The notes below the pieces were generated by a model, which worked only from the letters and a program-made list of their open reading frames with translations, did not search any database and was not told the origin of the DNA. The position numbers were made by a program, and so were the translations under genes. Positions 8,030 to 39,648 of a stretch of 39,648 nucleotides of DNA are shown here, piece after piece. The stretch is from assembly GCA_002712285.1 (NCBI GenBank), contig PATC01000036.1:1-39648 (forward strand), given 5' to 3'. Source of the stretch: Methanobacteriota archaeon. Lineage in GTDB: Archaea > Thermoplasmatota > Poseidoniia > Poseidoniales > Thalassarchaeaceae. Each line of letters begins with the position of its first letter. Positions within the stretch are counted from its first letter, which is position 1.

Positions 8030-8106
8030 GCACAGGTAGCAAAGCCCGGTTACGCGTACGACTGCAGATCGTATTTACGTGGGTTCGAATCCCACCCTGT
8101 GCTCCA
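8030..8106 (+). tRNA. tRNA-Cys (anticodon GCA), CCA encoded
   Basis: A cloverleaf can be drawn. The acceptor arm is GCACAGG (8030-8036) with CCTGTGC (8096-8102). The anticodon stem TACGA (8057-8061) pairs with TCGTA (8069-8073) around loop CTGCAGA, with GCA at 8064-8066. The T arm GTGGG (8079-8083) pairs with CCCAC (8091-8095) around TTCGAAT. The discriminator is T (8103), as expected for cysteine, and CCA is encoded at 8104-8106. The D stem is short (GCA/CGC with one A-C mismatch) and keeps the GG of the D loop. No intron. Only one base separates the CCA from the stop codon of the opposite-strand gene at 8108. Confidence 0.95.
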
Positions 8107-34958: not shown

Positions 34959-36347
34959 ATGGAAGAACGGATTGAACGTGATACTATGGGCACACTTTCG
35001 GTGCCAAGTGATCGTTATTGGGGGGCACAGACAGCCCGTTCCTTGATGAATTTCGATATCGGTGAGGACGCAATGCCGCAAGGCGTCATTCGAGCATTCG
35101 GCATTCTCAAGATGGCTGCAGCTGAAACCAACAAAGCTCTCGGAACATTAGATGGCGATGTAGCAGACCTCATCACCGCTGCCGCATCCGAGGTTGCCTC
35201 CGGATCGTTGAATGATCACTTTCCACTTCGAGTATGGCAAACGGGTTCGGGTACACAATCTAACATGAATGCCAACGAAGTAATTGCAAACCGAGCAATA
35301 GAGATGGCAGGAGGCGTATTAGGTAGTAAAGATCCAATCCATCCTAATGATCACGTCAACAAGGCTCAGTCCAGTAATGACACCTTCCCCACAGCGATGC
35401 ACATTTCAGCGGCTGAAGCCATTATGCATGACGTGATTCCATCGGTCAAATCCCTCCGCGATTCTCTCCACAAGAAATCGAAGGAATGGTCTGACATTGT
35501 GAAGATTGGACGAACCCATTTGATGGATGCAGTTCCTTTGACTTTAGGCCAGGAGGTCGGTGGTTGGGTTGCTCAGATTGATGCATCTCTAACACGTATC
35601 GAGGCATCAATGGATGACCTATACGAAATTGCACTTGGAGGAACTGCGGTGGGGACTGGCCTAAACACACATCCCGATTTTGCTGCAGGAGTCGCCTCTA
35701 AGATTGCGGACCATACCGGACTTCCTTTCCGCAGCGCTCCGAACAAGTTTGCCCAACTTGCAGCTCATGATGCGATTGTTGCGGTGAGTGGATCGTTAAG
35801 CGTCCTTGCGGTATCTCTCATGAAGATCGCAAATGATGTCCGCTGGCTTGGTTCAGGTCCGAGGAGTGGTCTTGGAGAACTCGAGTTACCAGCCAATGAA
35901 CCAGGTTCCTCAATCATGCCTGGTAAAGTCAATCCAACACAATGTGAAGCATTGACAATGGTCTGTGCTCAGGTAATGGGTAACCACACAGCAGTAACTG
36001 TAGGTGGTTCACAAGGCAATTTTGAATTAAATGTGTACAAGCCGATGATGATACACAATTTATTGCACTCTGCTCGTATTTTGACTGATTCATGCCATTC
36101 ATTCAGAGAACGTTGTATCGATGGTCTTCAGCCGAATCACGAGAATATCCGTGAGCATCTCGATAATTCGTTGATGCTTGTTACAGCTTTGAATAACCAC
36201 ATTGGATATGATGCTGCGGCAAAGATTGCGAAGAATGCTCATGAGAATGGATTGACGTTGAAACAGAGCGCTCTCGCTCTCGGTCTTTTGACTGAGGCTC
36301 AATTCGATGAATGGGTTCGACCAGAAGATATGACTGGGCCAAAGTAG
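34959..36347 (+). CDS. fumC: Fumarate hydratase, class II
   Basis: Interconverts fumarate and malate in the TCA cycle. 462 residues, typical length. [60 protein letters not shown] and [20 protein letters not shown] lie in order, and [17 protein letters not shown] is the superfamily signature carrying the catalytic Ser in the preceding loop. The C-terminal domain ends [12 protein letters not shown] as in other members. The iron-independent class II form suits an aerobic lifestyle. Distances to the flanking genes (45 and 96 bp) leave co-transcription open. Confidence 0.95.
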
Positions 36348-36443
36348 AGAACTACATCATCTCGATTACAGGGGTGGATTCTAGTTTCTTTCAACTGGAT
36401 TTTGTGTCCAAAGAGGTAAAGGAGACTCGTCCATCCAAGGCAC

Positions 36444-37952
36444 ATGGACGCCTACCTAGAGTTGCTTTCAAAACAGAAAGACATTGAGACCATTGGCCAA
36501 ATCTCCGGCCTTCTTGGCTGGGATCAAGAGGTAATGATGCCACCGAAAGCAGCCCCTCTTCGTGCTGAGCAACTTGCATGGCTTTCCAAGGCACGACATG
36601 GCATGATGACCGACTCTAGGATGGGCGCTCTTCTTTCTGCTGCTGAAGCCGAAGACGATGGTAGTGATGAAACGCGTTCAGGAAATCTCCGCCTCATTCG
36701 AGATTCTTATGATAAAGCAACTAAGCAACCCACAGATTTTGTGGAGCGTTTTGCCCGTCATAAGTCTAAATCGATTGTATCGTGGACCGAAGCTCGTGCT
36801 AAGAACGATTTCTCGATTTTCCGCGATGATCTTTCAACAATGGTCGATCTTGCTCGCGAACTTGCTGACCATCTAGGATATGAAACACTTCGATATGATG
36901 CCTTACTTGACCTCTATGAGTCGGGCCTGACAGTTGCTCGCCTAGACCCACTATTTGCTGGACTTCGCGAATCTTCTGTCCCTCTAATCCAAGGAGTGAG
37001 TGTAGATGATGGAGCGCATGATTGGGTCTACCGCCATGAGTGGTCAAAAGAAGGACAAGAAAATTTGAGTCAGGCTCTATCGGAAGCCGTAGGATTCGAT
37101 TTTGGTGCCGGACGTAGAGATGAATCAACTCACCCATTCTGTGGTGGAGCTAACCCTGACGATGTTCGATGGACTACACGCTATGATTCTCGAGAACCAT
37201 GGGGGGCAATCTTTGGGACGTTACATGAAACCGGGCACGCTCTCTACGAACAGGGCCGCCCACGAAACTTGGATTTTGAACCGAGTGGTCACGCTAATGG
37301 TTTAGGCGTACACGAGAGCCAGAGCCGTCTTTGGGAGAATCAGGTTGGACGTAGCCTAGCTTTCTGTGAATGGAGTCTTCCAATGTGGAAGGAGCACTTC
37401 CCAAAGAATATGGAAGGCGTGAGCGCAGAGATGCTTTGGCGAGCAATCAACCAAGTCGAACCGAGTTTAATTCGAGTTGAAGCAGATGAAGCGACATACA
37501 ATCTTCACATCATGATTAGGTATGAGGTGGAGAAACTTCTCATCTCAGGCGAACTTGATGTAGACAGTCTCCCAGATGCCTGGGATGATATGTACGAACG
37601 CTACCTCGGAATTCGTTCTCAGGATCGGAAACAAGGTGTTCTACAGGATATCCATTGGTCTATGGGGGCATTTGGCTACTTCCCAACTTACACATTAGGC
37701 AACCTGTATGCGGCCCAACTTCTTGTCGCAGCACGCAAAGATCTCGAATCTGTCGGTCATACTTTGGAAGATGATTGGCGTGAAGGAGAATTCACTCCAC
37801 TCTTAGGGTGGATGCGAAAAAATGTCCATGGCCGTGGGTCAATACTAACCCCTGCAGGCCTCATTGAGGAGGCCACGGGAGAAGCACCGACACCAGACCC
37901 CTTTGTTGACTATCTTCGAGATAAAATTGGCACAATCTATGGTTCTGTTTGA
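36444..37952 (+). CDS. Metallocarboxypeptidase, M32 (Taq) family
   Basis: Removes C-terminal amino acids from peptides. 502 residues, family length. The zinc site is HETGH (His261, Glu262, His265) with the third ligand Glu291 in HESQSRLWENQ, both in the standard context (DDVRWTTRYDSREPWGAIFG and QGRPRNLDFEPSGHANGLGV). The N-terminal helix IGQISGLLGWDQEVMMPPKA is characteristic. IRYEVEKLLISGELDVDSLP and DIHWSMGAFGYFPTYTLGNL follow. There is no signal peptide, so the enzyme works in the cytoplasm, probably on oligopeptides taken up from outside. It is separated from fumC by 96 bp. Confidence 0.94.
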   Translation: MDAYLELLSKQKDIETIGQISGLLGWDQEVMMPPKAAPLRAEQLAWLSKARHGMMTDSRMGALLSAAEAEDDGSDETRSGNLRLIRDSYDKATKQPTDFVERFARHKSKSIVSWTEARAKNDFSIFRDDLSTMVDLARELADHLGYETLRYDALLDLYESGLTVARLDPLFAGLRESSVPLIQGVSVDDGAHDWVYRHEWSKEGQENLSQALSEAVGFDFGAGRRDESTHPFCGGANPDDVRWTTRYDSREPWGAIFGTLHETGHALYEQGRPRNLDFEPSGHANGLGVHESQSRLWENQVGRSLAFCEWSLPMWKEHFPKNMEGVSAEMLWRAINQVEPSLIRVEADEATYNLHIMIRYEVEKLLISGELDVDSLPDAWDDMYERYLGIRSQDRKQGVLQDIHWSMGAFGYFPTYTLGNLYAAQLLVAARKDLESVGHTLEDDWREGEFTPLLGWMRKNVHGRGSILTPAGLIEEATGEAPTPDPFVDYLRDKIGTIYGSV

Positions 37953-37961
37953 TTGCAATAA

Positions 37962-39107
37962 TTGAACATAGAAACGAGGCGTCCTTATGCGCCGCCGTTT
38001 CTGAAACGAATCATGGGCGGGCCGCGGACACTTGCTGCGGACTCTGTTGCTTGGATGGAGAGGCGAATGCCTCAGAGCATTTCTGCAGTTCATATCGATG
38101 ATTCGTTGATTCTTGCAGGAGATTGGAATGGACTCATTGTAGCTTGGAACTTAGAGGGAGAGGAACTTTGGTCAGCAGATGTGGGCGATCGAGTAACATC
38201 ATTCAAAATCGATCCAACTGATCAGGACATCCGTTGTATCGCAGGACGCGAAGCAATGAGAATCAACCCAATAGATGGCGAAATCCTATGGAAGACTGAA
38301 TTTGATGGTTCAACAGATATTTTGAGTTGCGCAGACGAAGGGAAGTGTTGGGTATCTTCTTCTGTTTATGATATCGAACTGAACGATTTCGTAATTTGTG
38401 CGATCACTCATATTGGCGCAGATGGGGAAATCATACACAGGCTAGAATTTGATGAGCGGCCATGGTCACTTCATATCTTGCCATCTGGGAAAATTGCTCT
38501 AGGACTCGGTCGTCCTAGAGGGGGTTTACTGTATCTCAAGCCAGACGGGAATCAATTGGTAGACAATCACTTCGATTTAGGGGATTCACCAGTATGTTGC
38601 GGAGTCGGCCAAGATGAGATTTTATTGGGACACATCAATGGCAGCATCACTAAAATCAGTACAGATGGAAAATCGGATCTCCTTCCTTCAATCACCAAGG
38701 AAACCATCGAATGTATAATCAAAAGTCCTCTAGGTCTTCTAATTGGAACCTCAAAAGGAAGCGCGATTTGCTATGATGATGAAGTAGCCTGGACAGTTGA
38801 TTTAGAAACAGAAATTGAGCACATTCGTTTTTGTAATCAGGAATGCGCTTGGTTTGGTACTTGGTCAGGAAGTAATGCGACACTCTCGCTTATAGATGTC
38901 AAAAGTGGTACGATTACTACTCACTTCACATTATCAGCACGCCTCAGAGATATTGCAGTACACGAAAATTTCACTGTAATCGGGATGGATGATGGTAGAT
39001 TACTCGTATTTGAGGAAAAAATGCTTACTCGTCGAATTGATTCAGAGTCAATAGAAACCAATGATCGATCTGATTTGAGGGATCGCCTCCGTGCTTTGCG
39101 AAAGTAA
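37962..39107 (+). CDS. Beta-propeller protein (PQQ/WD-like), cytoplasmic
   Basis: 381 residues if started at the TTG at 37962 (10 bp after the previous stop), or 364 if started at ATG 38013 (MGGPRTLAADS); no ribosome site distinguishes them. Repeated blades are visible as DDSLILAGDWNGLIVAWNLE, GEELWSADVGDRVTSFKIDP, INPIDGEILWKTEFDG, DEILLGHINGSITKISTDGK, LLIGTSKGSAICYDDEVAWT and FTVIGMDDGRLLVFEEKML, at about 40-60 residue intervals, consistent with six or seven blades. No signal peptide or membrane helix is seen, unlike the propeller at 32067. The basic tail (RSDLRDRLRALRK) may bind nucleic acid or another protein. Function unknown; likely scaffold or sensor. Confidence 0.72.
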   Translation: MNIETRRPYAPPFLKRIMGGPRTLAADSVAWMERRMPQSISAVHIDDSLILAGDWNGLIVAWNLEGEELWSADVGDRVTSFKIDPTDQDIRCIAGREAMRINPIDGEILWKTEFDGSTDILSCADEGKCWVSSSVYDIELNDFVICAITHIGADGEIIHRLEFDERPWSLHILPSGKIALGLGRPRGGLLYLKPDGNQLVDNHFDLGDSPVCCGVGQDEILLGHINGSITKISTDGKSDLLPSITKETIECIIKSPLGLLIGTSKGSAICYDDEVAWTVDLETEIEHIRFCNQECAWFGTWSGSNATLSLIDVKSGTITTHFTLSARLRDIAVHENFTVIGMDDGRLLVFEEKMLTRRIDSESIETNDRSDLRDRLRALRK

Positions 39108-39149
39108 AATTAACAATTCTGCATCGGAAATAGGGGTAGTATAGTGTTA

Positions 39150-39175
39150 ATTTCCTAAGGAAATCGCCTTTTTCT
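39150..39175 (+). terminator. Hairpin with T-rich tail after the propeller gene
   Basis: ATTTCC (39150-39155) and GGAAAT (39159-39164) form a 6-bp perfect stem with loop TAA, followed by CGCC and TTTTTCTT. It lies 42 bases after the stop codon and directly before the next promoter-like element, as expected for the end of the upstream transcript. Confidence 0.5.
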
Positions 39176-39176
39176 T

Positions 39177-39190
39177 GCAAAAGTTAATAG
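39177..39190 (+). promoter_or_regulatory. Archaeal BRE/TATA-like promoter
   Basis: GCAAAA followed by GTTAATAG matches the purine/A-rich BRE followed by an AT-rich TATA box. A start about 25 bases below the TATA centre (39187) falls at 39211-39214, just before the first predicted RNA helix (39215). No coding start lies downstream in that window, so it probably serves a non-coding transcript. Confidence 0.5.
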
Positions 39191-39319
39191 ACATCCCTTA
39201 CTTATGCTAAGTTACCGCTCCGGGGGAGTGGCGTGATGGGGCAACTCATTGCGGGGACTCCGGTCCGGAACTACAAACCTGAGTGGTTCCGACACTTGGT
39301 CAAACAAGTGGACGGAAAA

Positions 39320-39425
39320 GGTCGATCAACATGAGAGACCTGGATACGACAGCAAAGAGCAATCAATGCTGGAACAAATCGGGAAGCTTAGGCTGAACGA
39401 AGAGAACGCAAAAAACGCCTAGTGC
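39320..39425 (+). repeat. 106-nt direct repeat, copy A
   Basis: Begins GGTCGATCAACATGAG and ends CGCCTAGTGC. It matches copy B (39543-39648) at 100 of 106 positions, with one 52-nt stretch identical. The distance between equivalent positions is 223 bp. It contains a small open frame of 21 codons from ATG 39331 to TGA 39396. Confidence 0.95.
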
Positions 39426-39542
39426 GAAAACGGCTCGTACCAAATCCAGTATGCAGGAGTGAACAGAGAGGCGACTCAACGGGAACAAATGTGGGAGACA
39501 AAAAAAAAGCGCTTGCGTGGATTTTGAGTCAACTGGAAATAA

Positions 39543-39648
39543 GGTCGATCTCCATGAGAGACCTGGACACAACAGCAAAGAGCAATCAATGCTGGAACAA
39601 ATCGGGAAGCTTAGGCTGAACGAGGAGAACGCAAAAAACGCCTAGCGC
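39543..39648 (+). repeat. 106-nt direct repeat, copy B (reaches the window edge)
   Basis: Begins GGTCGATCTCCATGAG and ends CGCCTAGCGC at the last base of the window. The six differences from copy A are AA to TC near the start, T to C, G to A, A to G, and T to C at the end. Whether further copies follow cannot be seen. The same 21-codon frame lies at 39554-39619. Confidence 0.95.

Follow-up and report, generated by a model that had tools for sequence, protein, structure and literature searches.

To our knowledge, few large structured RNAs are known besides rRNA, RNase P RNA, and SRP RNA. The ornate classes that are best known (OLE, GOLLD, and ROOL) have been described from bacteria or phages. 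OLE RNA (Ornate Large Extremophilic) is ~600 nt long, is encoded by a stand-alone chromosomal gene, and has an ornate fold with conserved segments (PMC9723947, PMC12286853). GOLLD and ROOL are large ornate noncoding RNAs that contain long variable regions and form RNA-only cages (PMC12286853).

Here we analyzed a stretch of archaeal DNA (the window) that constitutes the entire contig C38 of genome G000, 39648 bp in length. A first-pass annotation had noted five abutting hairpins (P1 to P5) just below a BRE/TATA-like element near the contig end and had proposed either a new structured RNA of this lineage or the 5' part of a ribozyme retroelement such as a group II intron. We consider it likely that the hairpins form the beginning of a stand-alone gene for a large, structured noncoding RNA of Marine Group II archaea (Poseidoniales); this RNA would act in trans, most likely as a scaffold. 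Judged from its homologues, the locus is almost certainly a genuine structured noncoding RNA gene. In what follows, genomes, contigs, loci, and genera carry our own handles (G, C, L, and g); f1 denotes Thalassarchaeaceae, the window's family (148 genomes), f2 the second family (171 genomes) of the order Poseidoniales (319 genomes), and g1 the window's genus.

Like OLE, the archaeal RNA is encoded by a stand-alone chromosomal gene, falls in the same size range, and has an ornate fold with conserved segments. However, OLE is found in Gram-positive bacteria, whereas the archaeal RNA adjoins a beta-propeller protein gene and gave no match to the OLE model, with E values up to 10 admitted for g1 copies and up to 1 for the other genera. 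OLE is a membrane ribonucleoprotein with Oap proteins. With GOLLD and ROOL the archaeal RNA shares the character of a large ornate noncoding RNA with long variable regions, but those RNAs are bacterial and phage-associated, whereas the archaeal RNA is chromosomal and matched neither the GOLLD and ROOL models nor the viral contigs and phage records searched. A viral or phage origin was rejected because IMG/VR contained no exact match of four conserved patterns and a blastn search of phage records found nothing.

A scan with the 4227 models of Rfam 15, intron models included, matched no family: nothing rose above the gathering threshold in the window locus, in the complete g1 copies, or in the g2, g5, g6, g9, g11, g15, and g17 copies, and the permissive matches lay far below the cut-off. 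In the whole window, Rfam recognizes only an ordinary tRNA-Cys gene (GCA) at 8030-8106. Archaeal RNase P RNA and SRP RNA are likewise large structured archaeal RNAs, and a divergent housekeeping RNA of either kind would also be structured, single copy, and conserved in position, but both have separate standard copies in the same lineages. RNase P RNA (RF00373) lies at G000:C11:25716-26013 and was found in 19 of the 20 genomes searched, and SRP RNA (RF01857) lies elsewhere in 31 of 39 genomes, including six of the genus (such as G003, G005, and G009). The mismatch with these two RNAs, which the first-pass annotation had noted, was borne out, and we regard a housekeeping origin as extremely improbable.

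We give the same low probability to a group II intron or another retroelement, of which the hairpins would be the 5' part. Group II introns are likewise large structured RNAs, and the dense tiling of helices that had suggested one is confirmed below; nevertheless, no intron model matched at E up to 10, no reverse transcriptase was seen adjacent to the RNA, and the RNA is not mobile but vertically inherited at one site across two families. This half of the original proposal is not supported. Because none of the 4227 Rfam families matched and no description was found in the open literature searched, we rate the RNA as a new RNA class.

Neighborhood, promoter, and ends of the RNA gene

The contig end at 39648 cuts the RNA gene, leaving only its 5' part in the window (Table 1). 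The 3' part is represented on contig C8 of G000, from 39605 down to ~39250, in the orientation expected for a gene continuing there; both C38 and C8 (whose end corresponds to L003 3250-3606) terminate within the RNA gene.

Table 1. Positions of the features discussed, numbered along the window
Feature	Position	Strand	Basis or remark
Beta-propeller (PQQ/WD40-like) protein gene, upstream neighbor	37962..39107	+	Pfam PF13570 E 2.4e-5, below curated cut-off; synteny; start codon TTG assigned mechanically
Palindrome TTTCCTAAGGAAA, TTTCC-N3-GGAAA element	39151..39163	.	only such site in window, expected 0.04
BRE/TATA-like element of RNA promoter	39178..39190	+	sequence; equal position relative to P1 in other genera
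5' part of RNA gene	39211..39648	+	start (~39211) predicted from TATA spacing
Switch segment, 25 nt	39212..39236	.	identical in all g1 copies; G003/G009-like flank to G005/G007-like RNA body
P1 hairpin CCGCUCC-GGG-GGAGUGG	39215..39231	+	fold; paired in 100% of cells, 34 distinct rows
P2 hairpin, GCAA (GNRA) loop	39232..39253	+	fold; U-A to C-G in G003 and G009; G-C to A-U in G001
5' strand GCGG of long-range closing helix	39251..39254	+	CCGC partner in 3' part, outside window; consensus pairs 41-44 with 397-400
P3 hairpin GGAC-UCCG-GUCC (UNCG loop)	39255..39266	+	fold; invariant in genus
P4 hairpin	39267..39290	+	fold; A-U to G-C and U-G to C-G in genus
P5 hairpin	39293..39310	+	fold; U-A to C-G in genus
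Module copy 1	39318..39425	+	opens with hairpin P6 (39319-39341) holding GA/GA internal loop
Module copy 2	39541..39648	+	108 nt, 94% identical to copy 1, 223 nt further on; cut by contig end

The RNA stretch starts ~100 bp past the stop codon of the beta-propeller gene and lies outside credible coding sequence. The gene order in relatives is M32 carboxypeptidase, beta-propeller gene, RNA, and then, in most, a convergent fumarase; the ORFs flanking complete copies are M32 peptidase, beta-propeller, and fumarase or ferritin-like genes, the last recognized by reading the sequence rather than by a family search. In the window, the fumarase gene instead precedes that of the M32 peptidase, both on one strand (34959-37952), an arrangement that we read from gene order as a local rearrangement in the window's lineage.

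The TATA-like box, AGTTAATAG (39182-39190), is ~28 nt 5' of P1 in the window and ~28-29 nt 5' of P1 in all genera inspected. The promoter element placed above the hairpins by the first-pass annotation is thereby upheld, since its spacing to P1 recurs in homologues of other genera. Given the spacing of this box, the RNA 5' end is likely to be near 39211, in agreement with the start originally predicted. The RNA would be transcribed as a stand-alone molecule from its own archaeal promoter, with a predicted transcript running from a few nucleotides before P1 to just past CUCCCACC.

This promoter bears on whether the RNA is instead a cis element that serves the beta-propeller gene as a terminator or as a long structured 3' UTR. 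As such an element would, the RNA does follow that gene directly and on its strand in those RNA-bearing genomes that were inspected. However, the conserved TATA-like box sits between gene and RNA at a fixed distance from P1, beta-propeller genes occur without an adjacent RNA in g12, g13, g14, and g16, and 430-860 nt is excessive for a terminator. We judge a cis element to be quite improbable.

Farther upstream, one or two TTTCC-N3-GGAAA-like palindromes were present in the genera inspected, in both families, and the palindrome is likely to be a regulator site. It was discarded as a regulon marker because the single extra sites in G009 and G016 fall within coding sequence, and no regulon was inferred. 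Around position 1501 of L205 (G015:C30), an intergenic pair, CAGTGGAAA and TTTCCAGTGGAAA, lies near another gene; the factor that recognizes the region upstream of the RNA may have a second target there. A promoter of its own and a palindrome resembling a regulator site suggest that expression of this stand-alone gene is controlled, as might be expected of a regulatory RNA, whether one that acts through base pairing or one that, like 6S RNA, binds a protein such as RNA polymerase. But the size and closure of this RNA are far beyond those of typical riboregulators and no conserved unpaired antisense stretch was established, making a regulatory RNA a rather unlikely explanation.

Complete copies in relatives measure ~430 to 860 nt, extending from P1 (GCCGCUCC..GGAGUGG) through a conserved 3' domain (GCGGAG..CUCCCA), with the extremes in g1 (~430 nt) and g9 (~860 nt). 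Complete g1 copies are ~433 nt, from about GUUACCGCUCCGGGGGAG to ..CCCCCUCUGCUCGCUCCCACC, except that the G001 and G005 copies reach ~656 nt owing to an internal 223-nt tandem duplication, the same one as in the window, that the other complete g1 copies do not have. In the g9 copies L142 (G017) and L143 (G027), several repeats of a purine-rich unit like GGAGAGAACTGGACGCAAGGAAGGGGAAGG bring the RNA to ~770-860 nt; single units related to GGAGAGAACTGGACGCAAGGAAGGGGAAGG are present in g4, g7, and g8. Past the RNA 3' end by ~45-60 nt, a stretch around AATCAATCATT is conserved in g1, g4, g9, and g10 (e.g., L021 and L098) although the next gene differs; it is possibly a terminator or regulator site.

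The window copy itself changes its closest relatives within the 25-nt switch segment (Table 1). Its flank (39110-39209) is 87-88% identical to G003/G009 and 63-67% to G001/G005/G007/G008, whereas its body (39237-39425) is 97.9-99.5% identical to G001/G005/G007/G008 and 80-84% to G003/G009. On C8, the 3' piece resembles G003/G009, as the flank does. The simplest reading is that the window copy is probably a cross-strain assembly chimera; a recombination product is possible as well. The exact window sequence may be absent from any single cell. The conclusion that this is an RNA gene is unaffected, because it rests on intact copies elsewhere.

Folding and compensatory changes

The minimum-energy fold of 39211-39310 consists of precisely P1 to P5, as had been drawn, with an energy of -47.1 kcal/mol compared to a shuffle mean of -32.1 (sd 3.5; z -4.26). 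None of 200 dinucleotide shuffles was as stable, and the shuffle control that had been named as a way to refute the structure did not do so. The earlier description stands for the five hairpins but not for their extent, since structure continues past 39310 to the contig end and beyond. Similarly, P2 is found by the local fold, but its foot was probably drawn wrongly: in the genus consensus, 39251-39254 pair ~350 nt downstream.

Within the genus, double compensatory changes were seen at 15 of the 119 consensus pairs, some of which belong to P2, P4, and P5; the P2 of G001 has GAA/UUC in place of GGG/CUC. The GCGG/CCGC pairs of the closing helix do not vary within the genus, and P3 is also invariant there, so that covariation argues neither for nor against P3. 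Across genera, P1 changes from C-G to U-A and from G-U to A-U or G-C, in an alignment that is model-fitted and in which P1 is gap-free. Outside the genus, the counterparts of P2-P5 were scored in an alignment fitted to the model, so that their count leans towards it.

The 3' domain was compared in 34 distinct sequences. There, 95.0% of cells are paired, versus 41.7-61.6% when the partners are slid by 1-3 columns, and double changes occur in 15 of 20 pairs and 82 cells, versus 8.3 and 18.2 in shuffles. For the whole RNA, we used a MAFFT alignment of 26 complete f1 RNAs that was fitted to no model and is gappy. Its consensus energy is -274, versus -117.7 (sd 7.4) for column shuffles (z -21), and the consensus contains two long-range helices, the closing one (GGGCC/GGACCC) and another (GGUAGA/UCUACC), together with numerous short helices with double changes. 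The search for covariation in homologues, which could have spoken against the structure, yielded strong compensatory changes in both the 3' domain and the whole RNA. Sequence comparison shows a closed, multibranched fold in which a 5' hairpin and a 3' terminal domain are conserved and the inner modules vary in length.

A protein-coding origin was ruled out. All indels counted among the g7 copies have lengths that are not multiples of three, and the copies have no reading frame in common; we conclude for these reasons that the RNA is noncoding. A covarying fold over hundreds of nucleotides, noncoding character, and a promoter motif of its own together describe a stand-alone large structured noncoding RNA.

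Distribution and possible roles

The locus is present in 9 of the 10 genomes of the genus. Because the tenth (G006) is missing the neighboring beta-propeller gene as well, its lack of the RNA probably reflects a gap in the assembly. A covariance model of the 5' domain trained on the genus only (R1) matched 61 of the 319 order genomes, all in the window's family. The weak R1 matches that were checked are syntenic, and a tRNA or tRNA-like identity for them was rejected, as ARAGORN found none. With the beta-propeller protein as an anchor, further homologues were located in g2, g3, g5, g6, and g11 and in the second-family genera g15 and g17. A 3'-domain model that was also trained on the genus alone (R2) locates the 3' end at the correct place in other genera, including those of the second family, mostly with E values of 1e-5 to 1e-14, and we take these matches as independent confirmation of the homologues found by the anchor.

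At E <= 0.1, a broadened 3'-domain model (R3) matched 149 of the 319 order genomes, nearly all at 1e-7 to 1e-20. These comprise 122 of 148 genomes in f1 (all 11 genera) and 27 of 171 in f2 (g15, g17, and g22), for a total of 14 genera; the g17 and g22 copies, when read, contained the promoter, P1, and the 3' domain. The RNA is usually single copy at one conserved chromosomal site. A doubled 3' domain in G031 is preceded by a run of N and is probably an assembly artefact. Other genomes of the class gave no R3 match at E <= 0.01, and a phylum sample of roughly 300 genomes outside the order gave no credible match: the seven matches seen (E 0.003-0.056) are fewer than the ~30 expected by chance at E <= 0.1, and the best of them, in G553, lacks P1 on reading.

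Genomes of g12, g13, g14, and g16, when read, carry other sequence and no RNA at the beta-propeller site. We considered whether the RNA was hidden 3' of the beta-propeller gene in g13, but in G037 this stretch looks protein-coding, apart from a single internal stop, and fumarase comes next. Because these second-family lineages do without it, the RNA is not universally essential in the order. Taken together, the homologues, the compensatory changes, the conserved promoter and position, and the lack of an Rfam match strongly support the new structured RNA that the first-pass annotation had offered as one of its two readings.

As to what the RNA does, it is large, closed, and multibranched, and segments at both its 5' and its 3' end are invariant, as could also be the case for a catalytic RNA, a new ribozyme rather than a scaffold. 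Against this, no known ribozyme family matches, the length varies two-fold via module gain and repeat expansion, and there is no obvious substrate or cleavage site; we consider a ribozyme unlikely. rRNA-like expansion is a feature of structural RNAs. A scaffold is favored because a closed multibranched core whose modules expand freely is more like structural RNAs, among them the ornate folds of OLE, GOLLD, and ROOL (PMC12286853, PMC9723947), than like antisense regulators, and by this analogy the RNA would act in trans as a structural molecule. We place a scaffold ahead of a ribozyme, a regulatory RNA, and a cis element, with catalysis and cis-regulation less likely and part of the probability left unassigned, and tentatively suggest that the RNA could serve as the scaffold of a ribonucleoprotein or of an RNA-only particle. 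With similar reserve, it might be seen as the archaeal equivalent of the few giant ornate RNAs known, that is, as an RNA machine, either a ribozyme or an RNA-only particle, that belongs to the core of abundant surface-ocean archaea and is inherited vertically, is unrelated by sequence to known families, and has been lost in some sister lineages.

The carriers include many Marine Group II archaea of the surface ocean, and expression of the RNA is testable at once in existing ocean metatranscriptomes. Its presence in 14 genera, together with the failure to find it in several sister genera of one family, makes both a search for partner proteins and the consequences of its loss tractable. To have been kept at one site in two families of abundant ocean archaea, behind a conserved promoter and with strong compensatory evolution of its fold, an RNA of 0.4-0.9 kb must have an important role.
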